DNA of 64,000 nt, from contig NZ_LN650648.1 of assembly GCF_900002575.1 (NCBI RefSeq), positions 2,891,565 through 2,955,564 on the forward strand, read 5' to 3'. This DNA is from Romboutsia hominis. GTDB lineage: Bacteria; Bacillota; Clostridia; Peptostreptococcales; Peptostreptococcaceae. Below the pieces are notes generated by a model that was given only the letters and a program-made list of their open reading frames with translations, made no database searches and was not told the origin of the DNA. A program made the position numbers and the translations under genes. Shown piece after piece: positions 11,533-64,000 of the stretch. Positions within the stretch are counted from its first letter, which is position 1, and each line of letters starts with the position of its first letter.

Positions 11533-12855
<1,323 letters not shown>

Positions 12856-12900: not shown

Positions 12901-13206
12901 TTATTTACACTTTGAGTTTAATATGTATTTTTTTATATCTTCTAAGCTATTTAAACTCTTTATTATTCCTTCTGATTCTTCTATATTTTTTATAAATGTT
13001 CCTACTTCTTCTATTTTAGATACACCTAAAATTTCTTTATTTTCTCCAGACATTGTATCCATCATCATAATCTTATAATTAGATCCTTTTTTGCAGTAAA
13101 ATACTAATGTCTCCTTTATATTATTATCAATTATTCTAAATAAATTTATTTCTTTGTTTATTTCTATTATTTTTGGATATATATATAATACATTTATATG
13201 CAACAC
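12901..13206 (-). CDS. Hypothetical protein between dnaB and purA
   Basis: The 101-residue frame starts with GTG at 13206 behind GGGGGA. It has no membrane segment and no family I recognise. It has an alternating hydrophobic pattern with a Lys/Glu-rich C-terminus (SIEEV... and LEDIKKYILN-type helices), as in a small alpha/beta protein. It follows the dnaB terminator and the DnaA-box cluster, so it probably has its own promoter in that region and could be influenced by DnaA. Codon use resembles its neighbours. I consider it a real gene of unknown function. Confidence 0.65.
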   Translation of the reverse strand: MLHINVLYIYPKIIEINKEINLFRIIDNNIKETLVFYCKKGSNYKIMMMDTMSGENKEILGVSKIEEVGTFIKNIEESEGIIKSLNSLEDIKKYILNSKCK

Positions 13207-13255: not shown

Positions 13256-13282
13256 ATAAAAGCAAGCTAATAGCTTGCTTTT
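13256..13282 (-). terminator. Terminator of the dnaB operon
   Basis: AAGCAAGCTA/TAGCTTGCTT forms the stem; on the minus strand it is followed by TTTTATTGTTT. Confidence 0.85.
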
Positions 13283-13290
13283 TTTTGTAC

Positions 13291-13422
13291 TTATTCACAT
13301 TTATCAACAGGTTACATGTGGATAATGTGGATAAGTCTTTTTGTATTTTTCAACACTTATGATTTTTTTCCTACATTTATCCACATACTTTAACCAATTT
13401 CCAAAAAAACTTCTGTGGATAT
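13291..13422. promoter_or_regulatory. Cluster of six DnaA boxes behind dnaB
   Basis: Within 132 bases: TTATTCACA (13291), TTATCAACA (13301), two abutting perfect TGTGGATAA boxes (13317 and 13326), perfect TTATCCACA (13377) and TGTGGATAT (13414). Three sites are perfect and the others differ by one base. The cluster lies between the dnaB stop and its terminator. It resembles the origin-proximal DnaA-box clusters that titrate DnaA in B. subtilis. Confidence 0.8.
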
Positions 13423-13427
13423 CTTGG

Positions 13428-14756
13428 TTACATATCCCTAGATTTATCCGCAAATTTTTGAACTTCACCAAGCCAAACTAGCTCTACTGCACCAGTTTCA
13501 CCGTGTCTATTTTTAGCTATTATTACCTCTCCTATGTTCTTTTTTTCTGAATCTGGATGATAATATTCATCTCTATATAAAAACATTACTATATCTGCAT
13601 CCTGCTCTATTGCTCCAGATTCTCTTAAATCTGATAGCATAGGTCTATGATCTGCTCTTTGTTCTGGTGCACGAGATAGCTGAGATAATGCTACTACCGG
13701 ACAATTAAGTTCTTTTGCGATTATTTTTAAAGATCTTGATATTTTTGATATTTCTTGTTGTCTACTTTCATTATTACCTTCACCTTCCATAAGTTGAAGA
13801 TAATCTATAAGTATTAAATCTAATCCCTGCTCTATTTTAAGTTTTCTACATTTTGATCTTAACTCAGATATTTTTATACCTGGAGTATCATCTATATATA
13901 TCTTAGCATTAGATAAAACTGCCATAGAATCTATTATTCTAGGCCAGTCATTTTCTCCTAGCTTTCCTGTTTTTAATTTTTTAAGCTCTACACTAGATTG
14001 TGATGATAACATACGTTGAACTAACTGTTCTTTAGACATCTCTAAACTAAATACAGCTACAGATGCATCACCTTTTAGTGCTGCATTTTGAACAAGATTT
14101 AATGAAAATGCAGTTTTCCCCATAGCTGGACGAGCTGCTATTAGTATTAAATCTGTTCTCTGTAGTCCATTTATCTTTTTGTTTAAGTCTTTAAAACCAG
14201 TTGTTATTCCTGTTATTTCACTCTTTGATGTGTACAGATGTTCAATCATATCATAAGTATCCATTAGTACGCTATTTATAGATTTAAAATCATCACTAGC
14301 TTTTTCTTGAGATATATCAAATATCTGTTTTTCTGCTTTTTCTAAGACATCTTCTATTTTCGAGGAACCTTCATATCCTAAGCTTATAATTTCATTAGAT
14401 GCTTTTATAAGTTGTCTTAAAACTGATTTTTCCTTCACTATATCTGCATAATACTTTACATTAGATGTTGTAGGGACAATCGTTGATAAACTCGTTATAT
14501 AACTTATGCCTCCTACATCATCTAAATGTCCTTCTTTTTTAAGTTCTTCTGTTAGGGTTATTAAGTCTATTGGTTCACCTTTATTACTTAACTTTATCAT
14601 GCACTCATATATGATTTTGTGAGCTTCTTTGTAAAAGTCATTTGGCTTTATAGTTTCACTCACCGTTATCATTGCATCTTTATCAAGTAATATAGACCCT
14701 AATATAGACTGTTCTGATTCCACACTATGTGGAGGAATTCTAGTCATATCCTCCAT
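13428..14756 (-). CDS. dnaB: Replicative DNA helicase
   Basis: This is the hexameric 5'-3' helicase that unwinds DNA at the fork and recruits primase. The N-terminal domain (1-150) contains PHSVESEQSILGSIL. The RecA-like domain has Walker A AARPAMGKTAF (about 210-220), Walker B LILIDYLQLM and SDLRESGAIEQDADIVMFLYRD near the C-terminus. The 442-residue length is typical. The ATG at 14756 follows AGGTGAT. It is the last gene of rplI-containing operon 18521-13428. In Gram-positive nomenclature it is also called dnaC. Confidence 0.97.
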   Translation of the reverse strand: MEDMTRIPPHSVESEQSILGSILLDKDAMITVSETIKPNDFYKEAHKIIYECMIKLSNKGEPIDLITLTEELKKEGHLDDVGGISYITSLSTIVPTTSNVKYYADIVKEKSVLRQLIKASNEIISLGYEGSSKIEDVLEKAEKQIFDISQEKASDDFKSINSVLMDTYDMIEHLYTSKSEITGITTGFKDLNKKINGLQRTDLILIAARPAMGKTAFSLNLVQNAALKGDASVAVFSLEMSKEQLVQRMLSSQSSVELKKLKTGKLGENDWPRIIDSMAVLSNAKIYIDDTPGIKISELRSKCRKLKIEQGLDLILIDYLQLMEGEGNNESRQQEISKISRSLKIIAKELNCPVVALSQLSRAPEQRADHRPMLSDLRESGAIEQDADIVMFLYRDEYYHPDSEKKNIGEVIIAKNRHGETGAVELVWLGEVQKFADKSRDM

Positions 14757-36374: not shown

Positions 36375-36598
36375 TGTGGATTTTGTGTTAATATAATGTT
36401 TATATTTTTTTGTCTAAAATTTATTAACACTTTATACTACTAAAATCAACAAAGATATTAACACTTTATACACATGTTAATATCTTTGCATTTATTAGGC
36501 TTAAAGTATTTATTCACATTATCCACATAGCCTATTACTATTACTACTAATTTTTTATTTATTTTTTATATATGAAGACCACAAGGAGGTTATCCACA
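36375..36598 (+). promoter_or_regulatory. oriC: oriC part 2: DnaA boxes in the dnaA-dnaN gap
   Basis: Boxes: TGTGGATTT 36375 (two mismatches), TTATACACA 36466, then the abutting pair TTATTCACA 36510 and TTATCCACA 36519, and TTATCCACA 36590. The abutting pair, DnaA-trio (36532-36549) and T-rich tract (36550-36573) reproduce the basal unwinding system defined in B. subtilis. The last box lies between the dnaN ribosome-binding site and start codon. Confidence 0.9.
36532..36549 (+). promoter_or_regulatory. DnaA-trio array and unwinding element
   Basis: CTATTACTATTACTACTA is six in-phase triplets (CTA or TTA), four bases after the paired DnaA boxes and just before TAATTTTTTATTTATTTTTT. The complementary strand reads 3'-GAT/AAT repeats, the single-strand DnaA-trio consensus. 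Confidence 0.85.
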
Positions 36599-47553: not shown

Positions 47554-50456
<2,903 letters not shown>

Positions 50457-50518
50457 AAATCATTAACTAAATGATATACAGTTTTCAGAGTATTAATTAA
50501 AAAACTTTGAAAAAAATG

Positions 50519-50547
50519 TTGACAAAATATCATAAAAATGATATTAT
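50519..50547 (+). promoter_or_regulatory. Internal promoter between 23S and 5S (rrnA)
   Basis: Perfect TTGACA (50519-50524), 17-base spacer, TATTAT (50542-50547), then the ACTTGTCCTAGAGAGGAC box like that at the main rrn promoters. Confidence 0.85.
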
Positions 50548-50580
50548 AATACTTGTCCTAGAGAGGACAACAACATATTA

Positions 50581-50697
50581 TGTGGTTATTATAGCAAAGA
50601 GGATACACCTGTTCCCATACCGAACACAGAAGTTAAGCTCTTTAGCGCTGATGGTACTTGGAGGGCGACCTCCTGGGAGAGTAAGACGTAGCCACGT
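50581..50697 (+). rRNA. 5S rRNA, rrnA copy
   Basis: GTGGTTA/TAGCCAC terminal helix, CCCATACCGAACACAGAAG core. Ends are good to a few bases. Confidence 0.97.
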
Positions 50698-50702
50698 GGT
50701 AT

Positions 50703-50791
50703 GCCGAAGTGGCGGAACTGGCAGACGCACAGGACTTAAAATCCTGCGGGACTTACCTCTCGTACCGGTTCGATTCCGGTCTTCGGCACCA
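50703..50791 (+). tRNA. tRNA-Leu(TAA)
   Basis: An 89-base class II cloverleaf, anticodon TAA, encoded CCA; first gene after the rrnA 5S. Confidence 0.98.
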
Positions 50792-50800
50792 AAATATTGT

Positions 50801-50877
50801 GGGCCATTAGCTCAGTTGGTTAGAGCGCCCGGCTCATAACCGGTAGGTCTGGGGTTCGAGTCCCTGATGGCCCACCA
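50801..50877 (+). tRNA. tRNA-Ile2(CAT), lysidine type
   Basis: A 77-base cloverleaf with anticodon CAT. It resembles the TilS-modified Ile2 tRNA (GGCTCATAACC loop) rather than the initiator or elongator Met genes also present. Flanks AAATATTGTGG and CCACAATATTT are perfectly complementary. Confidence 0.85.
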
Positions 50878-51000
50878 CAATATTTAAATAAGAACTTTGA
50901 AAATTAAACAGTAGGTTAATTTATATAACTGATTCTTAAAAGAATCGAAAACAAACCAAGCCAGATATTCAGATAATGATAGTCTGAGCAGGTAACAACT

Positions 51001-52514
<1,514 letters not shown>

Positions 52515-52555
52515 TTACCTACTGTTTAATTTTGAGAGTTTTTATAAAAAATCTC

Positions 52556-52584
52556 TTGACAAAATTCGACAAATATAATAAAAT
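52556..52584 (+). promoter_or_regulatory. Internal promoter in the rrnB 16S-23S spacer
   Basis: Perfect TTGACA (52556-52561), 17-base spacer, TAAAAT (52579-52584), 24 bases before tRNA-Ala. Confidence 0.8.
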
Positions 52585-52607
52585 AATTCATGTTGAAAAA
52601 ATAATAT

Positions 52608-52683
52608 GGGGGTGTAGCTCAGCTGGGAGAGCACTTGCCTTGCACGCAAGGGGTCAGGAGTTCGATCCTCCTCATCTCCACCA
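52608..52683 (+). tRNA. tRNA-Ala(TGC)
   Basis: A 76-base cloverleaf, anticodon TGC, encoded CCA, in the rrnB spacer. Confidence 0.98.
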
Positions 52684-52772
52684 TTAGTACTTTGAAAACT
52701 GTATAACATTTAGTGATATGACATCATTTTTTATAAATAGACAAGAAAAGTCTTTAAAATAACTTTAATAAC

Positions 52773-55675
<2,903 letters not shown>

Positions 55676-55737
55676 AAATCATTAACTAAATGATATACAG
55701 TTTTCAGAGTATTAATTAAAAAACTTTGAAAAAAATG

Positions 55738-55766
55738 TTGACAAAATATCATAAAAATGATATTAT
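55738..55766 (+). promoter_or_regulatory. Internal promoter between 23S and 5S (rrnB)
   Basis: TTGACA (55738-55743), 17-base spacer, TATTAT (55761-55766), identical to the rrnA copy. It could drive 5S and the 44-tRNA array. Confidence 0.85.
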
Positions 55767-55799
55767 AATACTTGTCCTAGAGAGGACAACAACATATTA

Positions 55800-55916
55800 T
55801 GTGGTTATTATAGCAAAGAGGATACACCTGTTCCCATACCGAACACAGAAGTTAAGCTCTTTAGCGCTGATGGTACTTGGAGGGCGACCTCCTGGGAGAG
55901 TAAGACGTAGCCACGT
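55800..55916 (+). rRNA. 5S rRNA, rrnB copy
   Basis: Identical to the rrnA 5S as far as read. Confidence 0.97.
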
Positions 55917-55921
55917 GGTAT

Positions 55922-56010
55922 GCCGAAGTGGCGGAACTGGCAGACGCACAGGACTTAAAATCCTGCGGGACTTACCTCTCGTACCGGTTCGATTCCGGTC
56001 TTCGGCACCA
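55922..56010 (+). tRNA. tRNA-Leu(TAA)
   Basis: Block 1, gene 1. 89 bases, encoded CCA. Confidence 0.98.
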
Positions 56011-56020
56011 ACTTTAATAT

Positions 56021-56096
56021 CGCGGGGTGGAGCAGTTGGCAGCTCGTCGGGCTCATAACCCGAAGGTCGCAGGTTCGAGTCCTGCCTCCGCAACCA
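56021..56096 (+). tRNA. tRNA-fMet(CAT), initiator
   Basis: Block 1, gene 2. It has the unpaired C1-A72 and three G-C pairs (GGG/CCC) in the anticodon stem typical of initiators. 76 bases. Confidence 0.97.
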
Positions 56097-56105
56097 AATA
56101 AATAT

Positions 56106-56180
56106 GGCCCATTGGTCAAGCGGTCAAGACACCGCCCTTTCACGGCGGTAACAGGGGTTCGATTCCCCTATGGGTCACCA
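56106..56180 (+). tRNA. tRNA-Glu(TTC)
   Basis: Block 1, gene 3. Same sequence as the gene at 10949-11023. Confidence 0.98.
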
Positions 56181-56189
56181 ACTTAATAT

Positions 56190-56263
56190 GCGGGTGTAGC
56201 TCAATGGTAGAGTTCCGGCCTTCCAAGCCGGCTGTGAGGGTTCGATCCCCTTCACCCGCTCCA
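56190..56263 (+). tRNA. tRNA-Gly(TCC)
   Basis: Block 1, gene 4. 74 bases, anticodon TCC. Confidence 0.98.
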
Positions 56264-56272
56264 AAAACTTAT

Positions 56273-56348
56273 GGGACTATAGCTCAGCTGGGAGAGCACC
56301 TGCCTTACAAGCAGGGGGTCACAGGTTCGAGCCCTGTTAGTCCCACCA
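56273..56348 (+). tRNA. tRNA-Val(TAC)
   Basis: Block 1, gene 5. Acceptor GGGACTA/TAGTCCC. Confidence 0.98.
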
Positions 56349-56353
56349 TTCGC

Positions 56354-56430
56354 GGCCTGGTAGTTCAGCTGGTTAGAATGCCAGCCTGTCACGCTGGAGG
56401 TCGAGGGTTCGAGTCCCTTCCAGGTCGCCA
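56354..56430 (+). tRNA. tRNA-Asp(GTC)
   Basis: Block 1, gene 6. 77 bases. Confidence 0.98.
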
Positions 56431-56458
56431 AGTTAAATTTAATAAATACTTTTTATGT

Positions 56459-56534
56459 GGGAATATGGCTCAGTTGGTAGAGCAAATGACTGTTAATCAT
56501 TGGGTCACAGGTTCGAGTCCTGTTATTCCCGCCA
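56459..56534 (+). tRNA. tRNA-Asn(GTT)
   Basis: Block 1, gene 7. 76 bases. Confidence 0.98.
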
Positions 56535-56538
56535 ATAC

Positions 56539-56613
56539 GCTGGTGTGGCTCAACGGTAGAGCAGCTGACTTGTAATCAGCAGGTTGTAGGTTCGATTCCT
56601 ATCACCAGCTCCA
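56539..56613 (+). tRNA. tRNA-Thr(TGT)
   Basis: Block 1, gene 8. Same sequence as 10692-10766. Confidence 0.98.
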
Positions 56614-56620
56614 TAAATAC

Positions 56621-56705
56621 GGAGGATTTCCCGAGCGGCCAAAGGGGGCAGACTGTAAATCTGTTAGCATTGCTTTCGGTGGTTCGAATCCACCATCCTC
56701 CACCA
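56621..56705 (+). tRNA. tRNA-Tyr(GTA)
   Basis: Block 1, gene 9. Class II, 85 bases. Confidence 0.98.
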
Positions 56706-56715
56706 TAAAAAGTAT

Positions 56716-56799
56716 GCGGATGTGGCGGAATTGGCAGACGCACCAGACTTAGGATCTGGCGCCTACGGCGTGGGGGTTCGACTCCCTTCATCCGCACCA
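56716..56799 (+). tRNA. tRNA-Leu(TAG)
   Basis: Block 1, gene 10. Class II, 84 bases. Confidence 0.98.
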
Positions 56800-56819
56800 C
56801 TTTTAATAAACTATAATGT

Positions 56820-56896
<77 letters not shown>

Positions 56897-56903
56897 CATT
56901 CAT

Positions 56904-56979
56904 AGGGGATTCGCCAAGTCGGTAAGGCATAGCACTTTGACTGCTACATGCGTAGGTTCGAGTCCTGCATCCCCTGCCA
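56904..56979 (+). tRNA. tRNA-Gln(TTG)
   Basis: Block 1, gene 12. Acceptor AGGGGAT/ATCCCCT, starting with A1. Confidence 0.97.
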
Positions 56980-56989
56980 AATTAAATAT

Positions 56990-57065
56990 GACCCATTAGC
57001 TCAGTCGGTAGAGCACCTGACTTTTAATCAGGGTGTCCCGCGTTCGAGTCGCGGATGGGTCACCA
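56990..57065 (+). tRNA. tRNA-Lys(TTT)
   Basis: Block 1, gene 13. Same sequence as 11044-11119. Confidence 0.98.
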
Positions 57066-57069
57066 ATAC

Positions 57070-57158
<89 letters not shown>

Positions 57159-57161
57159 AAT

Positions 57162-57237
57162 GCCCAGATAGCTCAGTCGGTAGAGCAGGGGACTGAAAAT
57201 CCCCGTGTCGGTGGTTCGATTCCGCCTCTGGGCACCA
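57162..57237 (+). tRNA. tRNA-Phe(GAA)
   Basis: Block 1, gene 15. Confidence 0.98.
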
Positions 57238-57246
57238 TTAATTCGT

Positions 57247-57323
57247 GGCGGTATAGCTTAGTTGGCTAGAGCGTTCGGTTCATACCCGAAAGGTCACAGG
57301 TTCGACTCCTGTTACCGCTACCA
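57247..57323 (+). tRNA. tRNA-Met(CAT), elongator
   Basis: Block 1, gene 16. GGTTCATACCC loop region typical of elongator Met. Flanks CATTAATT and AATTAATG are complementary. Confidence 0.93.
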
Positions 57324-57335
57324 CTTAATTAATGT

Positions 57336-57412
57336 GGGCCATTAGCTCAGTTGGTTAGAGCGCCCGGCTCATAACCGGTAGGTCTGGGGTTCGAGTCCCT
57401 GATGGCCCACCA
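57336..57412 (+). tRNA. tRNA-Ile2(CAT), lysidine type
   Basis: Block 1, gene 17. Same body as 50801-50877, but with flanks TAATTAATGTGG/CCACATTAATTA in place of AAATATTGTGG/CCACAATATTT. Confidence 0.85.
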
Positions 57413-57432
57413 CATTAATTACTCAGTAATAC

Positions 57433-57509
57433 CGAGGTGTAGCGCAGTTTGGTAGCGCACATGGTTTGGGACCATGGGGCCGGGGGTTCGAGTCCCTTCA
57501 CCTCGACCA
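57433..57509 (+). tRNA. tRNA-Pro(TGG)
   Basis: Block 1, gene 18. Confidence 0.98.
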
Positions 57510-57519
57510 ATATAGATAT

Positions 57520-57597
<78 letters not shown>

Positions 57598-57605
57598 TTT
57601 AATAA

Positions 57606-57679
57606 GGCGACATAGCCAAGTGGTAAGGCAGTGGACTGCAACTCCTTGATCCCCAGTTCGAATCTGGGTGTCGCCTCCA
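57606..57679 (+). tRNA. tRNA-Cys(GCA)
   Basis: Block 1, gene 20 (last of the first block). Confidence 0.98.
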
Positions 57680-57695
57680 CTCAAAAAAATTGAAT

Positions 57696-57784
57696 GCCGA
57701 AGTGGCGGAACTGGCAGACGCACAGGACTTAAAATCCTGCGGGACTTACCTCTCGTACCGGTTCGATTCCGGTCTTCGGCACCA
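57696..57784 (+). tRNA. tRNA-Leu(TAA)
   Basis: Block 2, gene 1. Confidence 0.98.
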
Positions 57785-57794
57785 ACTTTAATAT

Positions 57795-57870
57795 CGCGGG
57801 GTGGAGCAGTTGGCAGCTCGTCGGGCTCATAACCCGAAGGTCGCAGGTTCGAGTCCTGCCTCCGCAACCA
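57795..57870 (+). tRNA. tRNA-fMet(CAT), initiator
   Basis: Block 2, gene 2; same as 56021-56096. Confidence 0.97.
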
Positions 57871-57879
57871 AATAAATAT

Positions 57880-57954
57880 GGCCCATTGGTCAAGCGGTCA
57901 AGACACCGCCCTTTCACGGCGGTAACAGGGGTTCGATTCCCCTATGGGTCACCA
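57880..57954 (+). tRNA. tRNA-Glu(TTC)
   Basis: Block 2, gene 3. Confidence 0.98.
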
Positions 57955-57963
57955 ACTTAATAT

Positions 57964-58037
57964 GCGGGTGTAGCTCAATGGTAGAGTTCCGGCCTTCCAA
58001 GCCGGCTGTGAGGGTTCGATCCCCTTCACCCGCTCCA
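57964..58037 (+). tRNA. tRNA-Gly(TCC)
   Basis: Block 2, gene 4. Confidence 0.98.
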
Positions 58038-58046
58038 AAAACTTAT

Positions 58047-58122
58047 GGGACTATAGCTCAGCTGGGAGAGCACCTGCCTTACAAGCAGGGGGTCACAGGT
58101 TCGAGCCCTGTTAGTCCCACCA
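58047..58122 (+). tRNA. tRNA-Val(TAC)
   Basis: Block 2, gene 5. Confidence 0.98.
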
Positions 58123-58127
58123 TTCGC

Positions 58128-58204
58128 GGCCTGGTAGTTCAGCTGGTTAGAATGCCAGCCTGTCACGCTGGAGGTCGAGGGTTCGAGTCCCTTCCAGGTC
58201 GCCA
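58128..58204 (+). tRNA. tRNA-Asp(GTC)
   Basis: Block 2, gene 6. Confidence 0.98.
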
Positions 58205-58232
58205 AGTTAAATTTAATAAATACTTTTTATGT

Positions 58233-58308
58233 GGGAATATGGCTCAGTTGGTAGAGCAAATGACTGTTAATCATTGGGTCACAGGTTCGAGTCCTGTTAT
58301 TCCCGCCA
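58233..58308 (+). tRNA. tRNA-Asn(GTT)
   Basis: Block 2, gene 7. Confidence 0.98.
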
Positions 58309-58312
58309 ATAC

Positions 58313-58387
58313 GCTGGTGTGGCTCAACGGTAGAGCAGCTGACTTGTAATCAGCAGGTTGTAGGTTCGATTCCTATCACCAGCTCCA
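58313..58387 (+). tRNA. tRNA-Thr(TGT)
   Basis: Block 2, gene 8. Confidence 0.98.
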
Positions 58388-58394
58388 TAAATAC

Positions 58395-58479
58395 GGAGGA
58401 TTTCCCGAGCGGCCAAAGGGGGCAGACTGTAAATCTGTTAGCATTGCTTTCGGTGGTTCGAATCCACCATCCTCCACCA
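58395..58479 (+). tRNA. tRNA-Tyr(GTA)
   Basis: Block 2, gene 9. Confidence 0.98.
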
Positions 58480-58489
58480 TAAAAAGTAT

Positions 58490-58573
58490 GCGGATGTGGC
58501 GGAATTGGCAGACGCACCAGACTTAGGATCTGGCGCCTACGGCGTGGGGGTTCGACTCCCTTCATCCGCACCA
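58490..58573 (+). tRNA. tRNA-Leu(TAG)
   Basis: Block 2, gene 10. Confidence 0.98.
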
Positions 58574-58593
58574 CTTTTAATAAACTAAACTAT

Positions 58594-58668
58594 GCGGGAA
58601 TAGTTCAGTGGTAGAGCGCAACCTTGCCAAGGTTGAAGTCGCGAGTTCGAATCTCGTTTCCCGCTCCA
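58594..58668 (+). tRNA. tRNA-Gly(GCC)
   Basis: Present only in block 2, between Leu(TAG) and Arg. 75 bases, anticodon GCC. Confidence 0.98.
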
Positions 58669-58680
58669 AATAAATAATGT

Positions 58681-58757
<77 letters not shown>

Positions 58758-58764
58758 CATTCAT

Positions 58765-58840
58765 AGGGGATTCGCCAAGTCGGTAAGGCATAGCACTTTG
58801 ACTGCTACATGCGTAGGTTCGAGTCCTGCATCCCCTGCCA
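58765..58840 (+). tRNA. tRNA-Gln(TTG)
   Basis: Block 2; same as 56904-56979. Confidence 0.97.
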
Positions 58841-58850
58841 AATTAAATAT

Positions 58851-58926
58851 GACCCATTAGCTCAGTCGGTAGAGCACCTGACTTTTAATCAGGGTGTCCC
58901 GCGTTCGAGTCGCGGATGGGTCACCA
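58851..58926 (+). tRNA. tRNA-Lys(TTT)
   Basis: Block 2; same as 56990-57065. Confidence 0.98.
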
Positions 58927-58930
58927 ATAC

Positions 58931-59019
<89 letters not shown>

Positions 59020-59022
59020 AAT

Positions 59023-59098
59023 GCCCAGATAGCTCAGTCGGTAGAGCAGGGGACTGAAAATCCCCGTGTCGGTGGTTCGATTCCGCCTCTGGGCACCA
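59023..59098 (+). tRNA. tRNA-Phe(GAA)
   Basis: Block 2; same as 57162-57237. Confidence 0.98.
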
Positions 59099-59107
59099 TT
59101 AATTCGT

Positions 59108-59184
59108 GGCGGTATAGCTTAGTTGGCTAGAGCGTTCGGTTCATACCCGAAAGGTCACAGGTTCGACTCCTGTTACCGCTACCA
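59108..59184 (+). tRNA. tRNA-Met(CAT), elongator
   Basis: Block 2; same as 57247-57323. Confidence 0.93.
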
Positions 59185-59196
59185 CTTAATTAATGT

Positions 59197-59273
59197 GGGC
59201 CATTAGCTCAGTTGGTTAGAGCGCCCGGCTCATAACCGGTAGGTCTGGGGTTCGAGTCCCTGATGGCCCACCA
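59197..59273 (+). tRNA. tRNA-Ile2(CAT), lysidine type
   Basis: Block 2; same body and flanks as 57336-57412. Confidence 0.85.
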
Positions 59274-59293
59274 CATTAATTACTCAGTAATAC

Positions 59294-59370
59294 CGAGGTG
59301 TAGCGCAGTTTGGTAGCGCACATGGTTTGGGACCATGGGGCCGGGGGTTCGAGTCCCTTCACCTCGACCA
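59294..59370 (+). tRNA. tRNA-Pro(TGG)
   Basis: Block 2; same as 57433-57509. Confidence 0.98.
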
Positions 59371-59380
59371 ATATAGATAT

Positions 59381-59458
<78 letters not shown>

Positions 59459-59466
59459 TTTAAAAT

Positions 59467-59542
59467 GACCCATTAGCTCAGTCGGTAGAGCACCTGACTT
59501 TTAATCAGGGTGTCCCGCGTTCGAGTCGCGGATGGGTCACCA
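59467..59542 (+). tRNA. tRNA-Lys(TTT)
   Basis: Extra Lys gene present only in block 2, between His and Cys. Confidence 0.98.
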
Positions 59543-59552
59543 TTTATATTAC

Positions 59553-59626
59553 GGCGACATAGCCAAGTGGTAAGGCAGTGGACTGCAACTCCTTGATCCC
59601 CAGTTCGAATCTGGGTGTCGCCTCCA
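59553..59626 (+). tRNA. tRNA-Cys(GCA)
   Basis: Block 2, last gene shared with block 1. Confidence 0.98.
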
Positions 59627-59631
59627 AAATT

Positions 59632-59708
59632 GCGCCTATAGCTCAACTGGATAGAGTGTCTGACTACGAATCAGAAGGTTAGGGGTTCGAGTCCCTTTGG
59701 GCGCACCA
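59632..59708 (+). tRNA. tRNA-Arg(ACG)
   Basis: Anticodon ACG, which is converted to ICG by TadA. 77 bases. Only after block 2. Confidence 0.98.
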
Positions 59709-59713
59709 TATCC

Positions 59714-59789
59714 GGGATTATAGCTCAGCTGGGAGAGCACCTGCCTTACAAGCAGGGGGTCACAGGTTCGAGCCCTGTTAATCCCACCA
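59714..59789 (+). tRNA. tRNA-Val(TAC), variant
   Basis: Last gene of the array. The acceptor is GGGATTA/TAATCCC, a paired change from GGGACTA/TAGTCCC in the other Val(TAC) copies. The rest matches. Confidence 0.98.
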
Positions 59790-59793
59790 GTGT

Positions 59794-59824
59794 AACCTCT
59801 AGTGAAAATCACTAGAGGTTTTTA
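59794..59824 (+). terminator. Terminator of the rrnA-rrnB-tRNA unit
   Basis: AACCTCTAGTG-AAAAT-CACTAGAGGTT followed by TTTTA. It is the first strong terminator after the rrnA promoter. Confidence 0.97.
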
Positions 59825-59948
59825 TATGCAAAAAATAAAACTAAGAATATATATTATCTTGATAAAGGAATTAAATTTACATATAATGGTATATAGATTT
59901 TAGAATATGTCAAAATTCTTAATAAAATATAATTTAGGGAGGATGACT

Positions 59949-60200
59949 ATGTCTAAAATAAAAAACATTAATAAAAATAAAGAAAAGCAAAAACTAATAA
60001 AGGAGATAAAAAGAGCTCAGTTGGATGTTGAAACAGCAGAACATTTTTTTCAACTAGTTACGGATCCAGAGTTAGTGGATGTTGCTATATATGAATTAGA
60101 GGCAAAAAAATCAAGATATAGATATTTAATAAAGATTGCTAAGGAAAGAGGAATAAAGAAGACATTACAAGAGTCTTTAGTAGAATCAATAGCAAAATAA
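59949..60200 (+). CDS. DUF2508 (YaaL-like) family protein
   Basis: The 83-residue protein is basic and helical (KEIKRAQLDVETAEHFFQLVTDPELVDVAIYELEAKKSRY), matching the small DUF2508/YaaL proteins coded near recR and rRNA genes in Firmicutes. The function is unknown. An open frame begins at 59907, but AGGGAGG at 59937-59942 places the start at ATG 59949. The next gene follows after 21 bases, so the two are likely co-transcribed. Confidence 0.75.
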   Translation: MSKIKNINKNKEKQKLIKEIKRAQLDVETAEHFFQLVTDPELVDVAIYELEAKKSRYRYLIKIAKERGIKKTLQESLVESIAK

Positions 60201-60221
60201 TTCTAAGGAGATGATTAAATC

Positions 60222-60635
60222 ATGTACGTAGTTTTTGGGGATGAAATAGTAGATAGCGAAGAATTAAAAGAGACTATACAAGAAAATAGTGACTTTATAG
60301 TAGAAAAAGATTTAACTAAAGGAACAAAAAGAGAAGATACATTAGCTTACCAAATAAGTATAGATATAGACAATTTAAATGAAATAATAAAAGAAGACTA
60401 TGATTTAGAAGAAATAGATAGTGAAGATTTATTTGATGAATATATAACATTAGCAGATGAATTAGCTATGGAACTAGAAGAAATAATGCCAGAAGATGCT
60501 GTTATGAATGCTAGGGCTTATAAATGGGATAATACAGATGATGCCATAAAAGTAGTTATAGCGATAGGACATGCAGAACTAGGTGAATTAAAAGTATCTG
60601 ATGTTGCGAGAAGATTATTATCACAAGTTGATTAA
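60222..60635 (+). CDS. Hypothetical acidic protein
   Basis: The 137-residue protein is strongly acidic (many Glu and Asp, for example DLEEIDSEDLFDEY), soluble, with no signal peptide or membrane segment. The C-terminal part (VIAIGHAELGELKVSDVARRLLSQVD) looks like a small alpha/beta unit. I do not recognise a family. The ATG follows AAGGAGATG. It lies with the DUF2508 gene between two blocks of stable RNA genes and has its own terminator, so it is a real gene. Confidence 0.75.
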   Translation: MYVVFGDEIVDSEELKETIQENSDFIVEKDLTKGTKREDTLAYQISIDIDNLNEIIKEDYDLEEIDSEDLFDEYITLADELAMELEEIMPEDAVMNARAYKWDNTDDAIKVVIAIGHAELGELKVSDVARRLLSQVD

Positions 60636-60644
60636 TAAAAGAGG

Positions 60645-60681
60645 AAGGGTATTAATATTACTTAATATCCTTTCTTTTTTA
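60645..60681 (+). terminator. Terminator of the DUF2508/acidic protein operon
   Basis: AAGGGTATTAA-TATTAC-TTAATATCCTT with one wobble pair, then TCTTTTTT. Confidence 0.9.
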
Positions 60682-60998
60682 TAATAAGTAATTTAATTAT
60701 ACTTAATAAACTTATATTAAGTATAATATAGAAGATAAAAGATTTTTGTGAATAGGTTAATTATAAGCAGATGATTATATGCCTTTGGATATAATTTTCA
60801 TTCATCTTAATAATAATATTTAAATATATATAGTTTATCAAATTTATAAGCATATAGTTGTATTAATTTAAATAAAATTGCATAGCTAATTTTTTTTAAG
60901 TTAATAATAAAATAATGAATAAATATACTCTATCTTACACATAATATAATTGTTGAAAAGCACATTATAAATAAAAAATAATTTTTTTTAAAAAAGTA
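60682..60998. other. AT-rich gap before rrnC
   Basis: No gene is seen. The last 30 bases (A- and T-runs) are a likely UP element for the rrnC promoter. Confidence 0.6.
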
Positions 60999-61027
60999 TT
61001 GACGATTTAAAAATAAGATGATATAGT
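60999..61027 (+). promoter_or_regulatory. rrnC promoter
   Basis: TTGACG (60999-61004), 17-base spacer, TATAGT (61022-61027), followed by ATTACTTGTCCTTAAG as at rrnA. Confidence 0.9.
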
Positions 61028-61171
61028 ATTACTTGTCCTTAAGAAAAGGGCAAAATGAAAATGAACTTTGAAAATTAAACAGTAGGTTAATTTATATAAC
61101 TGATTCTTAAAAGAATCGAAAACAAACCAAGCCAGATATTCAGATAATGATAGTCTGAGCAGGTAACAACT

Positions 61172-62685
<1,514 letters not shown>

Positions 62686-62737
62686 TTACCTACTGTTTAA
62701 TTTTGAGAGTTCATTAGAACCTCAAAATTAGTACTTT

Positions 62738-62926
62738 AAGCAACAGAATAAATTGAGTGAATACGAAATTTGTTTGTTGGCGACGTACTTTAGTACTTTG
62801 AAAACTGTATAACATTTAGTGATATGACATCATTTTTTATAAATAGACAAGAAAAGTCTTTAAAATAACTTTAAGCAATGGAATAAACTGAGTGAATACG
62901 AAGTTTGTTCATTCGCGATAACTTTT
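62738..62926 (+). repeat. Two hairpin modules in the rrnC spacer
   Basis: Two related sequences of about 45 bases (near 62738-62782 and 62875-62920) each form an imperfect hairpin around GAGTGAATACGAA. They are bracketed by short direct repeats: GTACTTT for the first and TAACTTT for the second. rrnA and rrnB lack the second module. Confidence 0.75.
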
Positions 62927-62933
62927 TAATAAC

Positions 62934-64000
<1,067 letters not shown>

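Follow-up and report, generated by a model that had tools for sequence, protein, structure and literature searches.

Directly behind dnaB, the gene of the replicative helicase, Romboutsia hominis carries a compact cluster of six DnaA boxes, and a 44-bp core within it, in which a tandem pair of boxes faces an inverted pair at fixed spacing, is strongly conserved in the family. Judging from its sequence, and with a confidence just above even, we read it as a conserved, dedicated origin-proximal module that would act in trans on the supply of DnaA. The window referred to here is the whole stretch of DNA that was analysed, 64,000 nucleotides long. The genes and elements of the interval, which follow one another in the order dnaB, module, hairpin, 101-aa ORF and purA, are listed below together with the origin region used for comparison:

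11533 to 12831, minus strand: purA, the conserved gene at the other side of the interval, whose position was also checked in the relatives.
12901 to 13206, minus strand: a 101-aa ORF with no match in Pfam, an inconstant companion of the module.
13258 to 13282, minus strand: a terminator-like hairpin directly after the module, on paper bidirectional, retained in most relatives.
13291 to 13422, no strand assigned: the whole cluster of six DnaA boxes in the 3' untranslated stretch of dnaB, from the box scan and the chance tests.
13291 to 13334, minus strand: the conserved core module of 44 bp, A(->)B(->) 7 bp C(<-) 1 bp D(<-) in the direction of dnaB.
13291 to 13299, plus strand: box D, TTATTCACA, 1 bp off C.
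13301 to 13309, plus strand: box C, TTATCAACA, facing B over 7 bp.
13317 to 13325, minus strand: box B, TTATCCACA, perfect, abutting A; its first base varies freely in relatives.
13326 to 13334, minus strand: box A, TTATCCACA, perfect.
13377 to 13385, plus strand: the upstream box, TTATCCACA, perfect, its position kept across the family.
13414 to 13422, minus strand: the first box past the dnaB stop codon, ATATCCACA, kept across the family.
13428 to 14756, minus strand: dnaB, replicative helicase (Pfam DnaB_C and DnaB N).
36510 to 36549, plus strand: the tandem box pair of oriC2, then DnaA-trios, for comparison (box scan and trio check).

The box scan, which accepted TTATCCACA-like 9-mers with up to one mismatch, bore out the description given in the sequence-only reading: six boxes in 132 bp, three of them perfect and two abutting on the same strand, located between the stop codon of dnaB and its terminator, with the start of dnaA 21.7 kb off. 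Two of its statements have to be adjusted. The density, said to equal that of oriC, is indeed high, but it exceeds that of oriC1 (9 boxes in 374 bp) instead of equalling it; and the cluster, placed in the 3' region of the helicase gene, does lie just behind dnaB, but entirely in the 3' untranslated stretch, the stop codon being at 13428-13430 (minus strand) and the first box beginning 5 bp past it. Counted from the stop in the direction of dnaB (minus strand), the boxes stand at 5+ (ATATCCACA), 42- (TTATCCACA), 93+ (TTATCCACA, box A), 102+ (TTATCCACA, box B), 118- (TTATCAACA, box C) and 128- (TTATTCACA, box D); a weaker seventh box, TTATCCGCA, lies at 13444+, within the coding end of dnaB.

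The six boxes in 132 bp form a dense cluster outside oriC far above chance, as in the DnaA-box clusters (DBCs) of B. subtilis. Among 300 first-order Markov copies of the window, none had a 132-bp segment with more than three boxes, and about 1e-6 clusters this dense are expected per genome from the genome-wide box density (1,189 boxes with up to one mismatch in 3.04 Mb). Perfect boxes number only 54 in the whole genome, against 101 in the reversed control; three of them are in the dnaB cluster and five around dnaA. Clusters elsewhere in the genome were judged exclusively from perfect boxes and profile matches. The one-mismatch form of TTATCCACA is also rarer in this genome (G000) than in the reversed control (1,189 versus 1,721), as if stray strong boxes were avoided.

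The sequence-only reading had called for a search in related species and had named the absence of the boxes despite a kept gene order as the refuting outcome; the boxes turned out to be strongly conserved. Relatives whose dnaB is 79-95% identical mostly have the same boxes at the same spacing behind the gene, with the core consensus TTATCCACA-NTATCCACA-N7-TGTTGATAA-N-TGTGAATAA. The spacer is 6 instead of 7 bp in three relatives (L095, L101 and L104), and box D is lost in L001, L086 and L087. In an alignment of 24 loci, the mean pairwise identity is 0.93 for the box columns versus 0.58 for the columns between them (P = 6e-16), which points to selection on the boxes and not just to recent common ancestry.

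A profile constructed solely from the sequences of 21 cores matched 57 of the 71 genomes of the family (Clostridioides difficile group) at E <= 1e-6, a count that is partly circular because those 21 cores trained the profile; its independent part consists of the untrained genomes and of the whole-genome best matches that fall at the dnaB locus. Every profile match with flanking DNA examined adjoins dnaB, behind the gene; the match in G019 is on a different contig from its dnaB. The standard module is missing at dnaB in two genomes of genus g20 and in G015, and genus g6 has another box cluster there. Two further features of the sequence are recorded here. The 7-bp spacer (13310-13316), in the window and in relatives, often reads GAACACC or similar, which gives ACAG-N5-CTGT between B and C, possibly an extended box or the site of a second binding protein. 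Furthermore, the DNA separating box A from the upstream box contains a TTGAAA-bearing stretch (13343-13357) that most members of the family retain and that is not a DnaA box.

The genes around the module are far less constant. Of 27 related loci, 21 have a homolog of the 101-aa ORF in the interval from dnaB to purA, and the module is present with no small gene found in L089, L090, L100, L101 and L104. In relatives, the place between the module and purA, or between dnaB and the module, is occupied by the 101-aa ORF, by a ferritin-like, a GNAT-type (acetyltransferase-like) or an HD-GYP-type gene (the last three named by eye from the sequence and not by a family search), or by no gene. The AlphaFold model of the 101-aa ORF (mean pLDDT 88.8) has five strands followed by three helices; its comparison with PDB structures gave nothing significant, the best match being a weak likeness to PsiB (E 0.25). 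With no Pfam match and no significant PDB match, the reading of the ORF as an already known checkpoint or DnaA protein was rejected.

Three roles had been proposed for the cluster, namely a DnaA reservoir, a regulator of the small gene and a roadblock to the transcripts of dnaB. The first is the best supported of the three. The second is disfavoured and was rejected as the function of the module, which is kept where the small gene is missing or replaced by the genes named above. The fact that the neighbours change while the module stays near the origin suggests a function in trans on DnaA and not on the adjoining genes. The distance between module and dnaA is 18.4-23.1 kb in 12 genomes of the family, which conserved gene order alone could keep. 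The sequence-only reading had noted neither the facing arrangement at fixed spacing nor how deep the conservation goes, nor a resemblance to the core of DARS.

The DnaA encoded in the window matches PDB entry 8btg, which we take to be B. subtilis DnaA, over 436 residues including the DNA-binding domain; it is an ordinary Firmicute DnaA. The DnaA of C. difficile, in turn, is predicted to recognise the standard box (PMC7561715). According to the mechanism that we propose, DnaA would bind the tandem boxes A and B and the inverted boxes C and D cooperatively, and the facing protomers might form a closed complex. The tandem pair of oriC2 is followed by DnaA-trios, where the DnaA filament opens the duplex; since the pair of the module runs into opposing boxes, its complex should not melt the DNA, and the module would gather DnaA without opening the duplex. 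Lying about 20 kb from oriC, the module should be copied shortly after every initiation. With each firing, the strong sites that compete with oriC for DnaA would double in number and so delay the next round.

Among known systems, the closest in this respect are the B. subtilis DBCs (sda, ywlC, ywcI, yydA, trmE and gcp-ydiF), which are likewise intergenic and outside oriC, several of them near the origin. Removing six B. subtilis clusters leads to early initiation, which supports a titration model (PMC5295017, PMC13220808); singly, the clusters have little effect (PMC5295017). None of the strong DnaA sites listed for B. subtilis is at the helicase gene (PMC4447404). The dnaB module, for its part, has a fixed four-box geometry across a family. 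Two aspects speak against pure titration: spacing fixed to the base pair is neither needed for it nor explained by it, and a set of six sites is small, unless their binding is much tighter than that of scattered boxes.

The fixed spacing suits a specific complex better than simple titration, and this brings in the first alternative, according to which the module would be DARS-like or datA-like, with facing protomers on B, C and D altering DnaA's nucleotide state through ADP release or ATP hydrolysis and thereby acting as an active on/off switch for DnaA. By analogy with E. coli, we regard this as a tentative possibility of rather low probability. In the K-12 sequence, the core of DARS1 reads box I -> 5 bp <- II 3 bp <- III, with two further instances of this spacing in the ygdT-mutH region; we assume here that DARS1 corresponds to the bioD-uvrB interval and DARS2 to the ygdT-mutH interval. 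The dnaB module reads B -> 7 bp <- C 1 bp <- D, with an outer offset of 26 bp, the same as in DARS. Boxes B, C and D thus share the topology of DARS1 and DARS2, that is, head-to-head boxes a few bp apart and a close third box beside the second and oriented like it; the head-to-head arrangement of boxes I and II is the hallmark of DARS and essential to it (PMC10380432). The exact spacing is not shared: the first spacer is 7 bp long (6 bp in three relatives) and the second 1 bp, in place of 5 and 3 bp, each inner spacing being 2 bp off. Moreover, the module differs from the E. coli elements in having an extra box A abutting B, in belonging to another phylum and in lying near oriC, and a common topology with DARS does not amount to homology. 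The likeness to datA concerns the proposed role, that of DnaA boxes outside oriC limiting initiation; datA is IHF-dependent and promotes ATP hydrolysis (PMC5295017). B. subtilis has neither datA nor DARS, and a 2026 review treats the existence of regulators of the DnaA nucleotide state in that species as an open question (PMC13220808). Because the topology is common to DARS and the spacers are not, we keep the nucleotide-state alternative at this low level and the plain reservoir slightly above even. The broader idea of a Gram-positive element acting on the DnaA nucleotide state, with its tandem pair facing an inverted pair and kept beside the helicase gene across an order of Clostridia, appears doubtful to us.

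A local control of transcription, in which bound DnaA would either aid the termination of dnaB transcripts or block or modulate dnaB read-through that reaches the small gene and purA, is unlikely. The cluster does lie in the dnaB 3' untranslated stretch right before the terminator, upstream of purA on the same strand, and several B. subtilis clusters are sites of transcriptional regulation by DnaA (PMC4447404). Nevertheless, the downstream gene is swapped or missing while the module remains, no promoter-like match overlaps the boxes, and in several relatives a whole gene lies between the module and dnaB; as regards a roadblock to dnaB transcripts, the terminator directly after the cluster argues against it. 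Equally concerned with position is an architectural role, quite improbable in our opinion, in which DnaA would bridge the module to oriC and so shape or tether the origin domain. The roughly constant distance of about 20 kb to dnaA and the unusual fixed geometry would suit bridging, but the distance may simply mirror conserved gene order, and it reaches 40-98 kb for the candidate modules of other families (G472, G447 and G511).

Two further alternatives are very improbable. The four boxes nest into an imperfect 18-bp stem, so that an RNA hairpin at the 3' end of dnaB could be imagined, with A pairing with D and B with C in the transcript. Pair counting found compensatory changes only at the shuffled level (3 pairs changed on both sides versus a shuffled mean of 2.6), paired cells amount to 83.6% versus 83.1% in shuffles, and stem mismatches are frequent (columns 5/40, 10/34 and 15/29), which largely refutes the hairpin. 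The conserved unit is the DnaA box and not the base pair, and the pairing is a by-product of the box sequence. A remnant or spare replication origin would fit a box density at least that of oriC and the adjoining helicase gene, but DnaA-trios are absent on both strands of the module, its G+C content is 0.29 as compared with 0.21 at oriC1 and oriC2, and its tandem pair faces inverted boxes and not an unwinding region. The module does share with C. difficile-type oriC1/oriC2 the box consensus, and with oriC2 the abutting tandem pair; in the oriC2 of the window this pair is followed by six DnaA-trios. Since an unwinding region and DnaA-trios belong to oriC2 (PMC7561715) while the module has neither a trio nor a matching layout, a second origin was rejected.

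Outside the family, a strict four-box pattern gave three matches among 391 genomes of the class, all of them in the family and behind dnaB (reversed control, 0); given this small number, weaker versions were sought at the order level with the profile. A position-weight scan behind dnaB recognised the core in L107-L110, L118 and L121-L123 and, more weakly, in L125 and L130, and whole-genome profile matches between dnaB and purA were found in other families of the order (L184, L185, L189 and L190). With a looser criterion (at least three boxes per 150 bp, at most 1.3 kb from dnaB), clusters were present in families f3, f5, f6, f7, f9 and f12, and further out and looser in f11; near dnaB they were absent from families f2, f4, f8 and f10 of the order and from all 74 more distant Clostridia loci, a contrast that is indicative, since this set includes genomes of other base composition. 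The gap between the facing pairs is about 9-11 bp longer in f3, f6 and f9, near one helical turn, which is suggestive only. In G055 (f9), dnaB has no cluster, and a similar facing candidate module lies between tadA-like and prfB-like genes, on the opposite side of dnaA and yet 20.8 kb away from it; family f2 has a version of three boxes close to an rsmA-like gene, at distances of 51 and 98 kb from dnaA (these three gene names were assigned by eye). A different, helically phased architecture was observed in two Clostridium loci (L053 6403-6544 and L047 6132-6241), where, about 2 kb behind dnaB, five boxes of the same direction succeed one another every 25-27 bp.

DnaA-box clusters outside oriC are already known. 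For a widely conserved module of fixed geometry at the helicase gene, no report was found in the literature searched, which covered few subscription papers. From such a module in the C. difficile group it is evident that the geometry of DnaA sites outside oriC can be subject to selection, and its 44 bp offer a defined target for studying the balance of free and bound, ATP- and ADP-DnaA in Gram-positive bacteria.

A second conserved cluster of the genome lies 146 kb from dnaA (L111 1501-1604; G000:C1:2780000-2780104), between the raiA RNA (RF03072) and the ribosome hibernation gene hpf. In its layout, one inverted box is separated by 61-62 bp from an abutting tandem pair, and this pair by 25-26 bp from TAATCCACA; the layout is the same upstream of hpf in L210, L211, L213, L214 and L215, and partial in L212 and L216. 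If DnaA controls hpf, this would link replication with ribosome hibernation. A third cluster (L113 1516-1853; G000:C1:45515-45852), on the opposite side of dnaA at a distance of 159 kb, is located between spoIIE and the gene for oligopeptidase F, and L217 has a five-box cluster behind spoIIE. A small conserved set of sites, at the dnaB, hpf and spoIIE loci, is thus indicated. Lastly, in the window at 47756-63868, the same set of ORFs repeats at a 5.2-kb step (47756 and 52975) and again near 63136; this long repeat probably represents ribosomal RNA operons.
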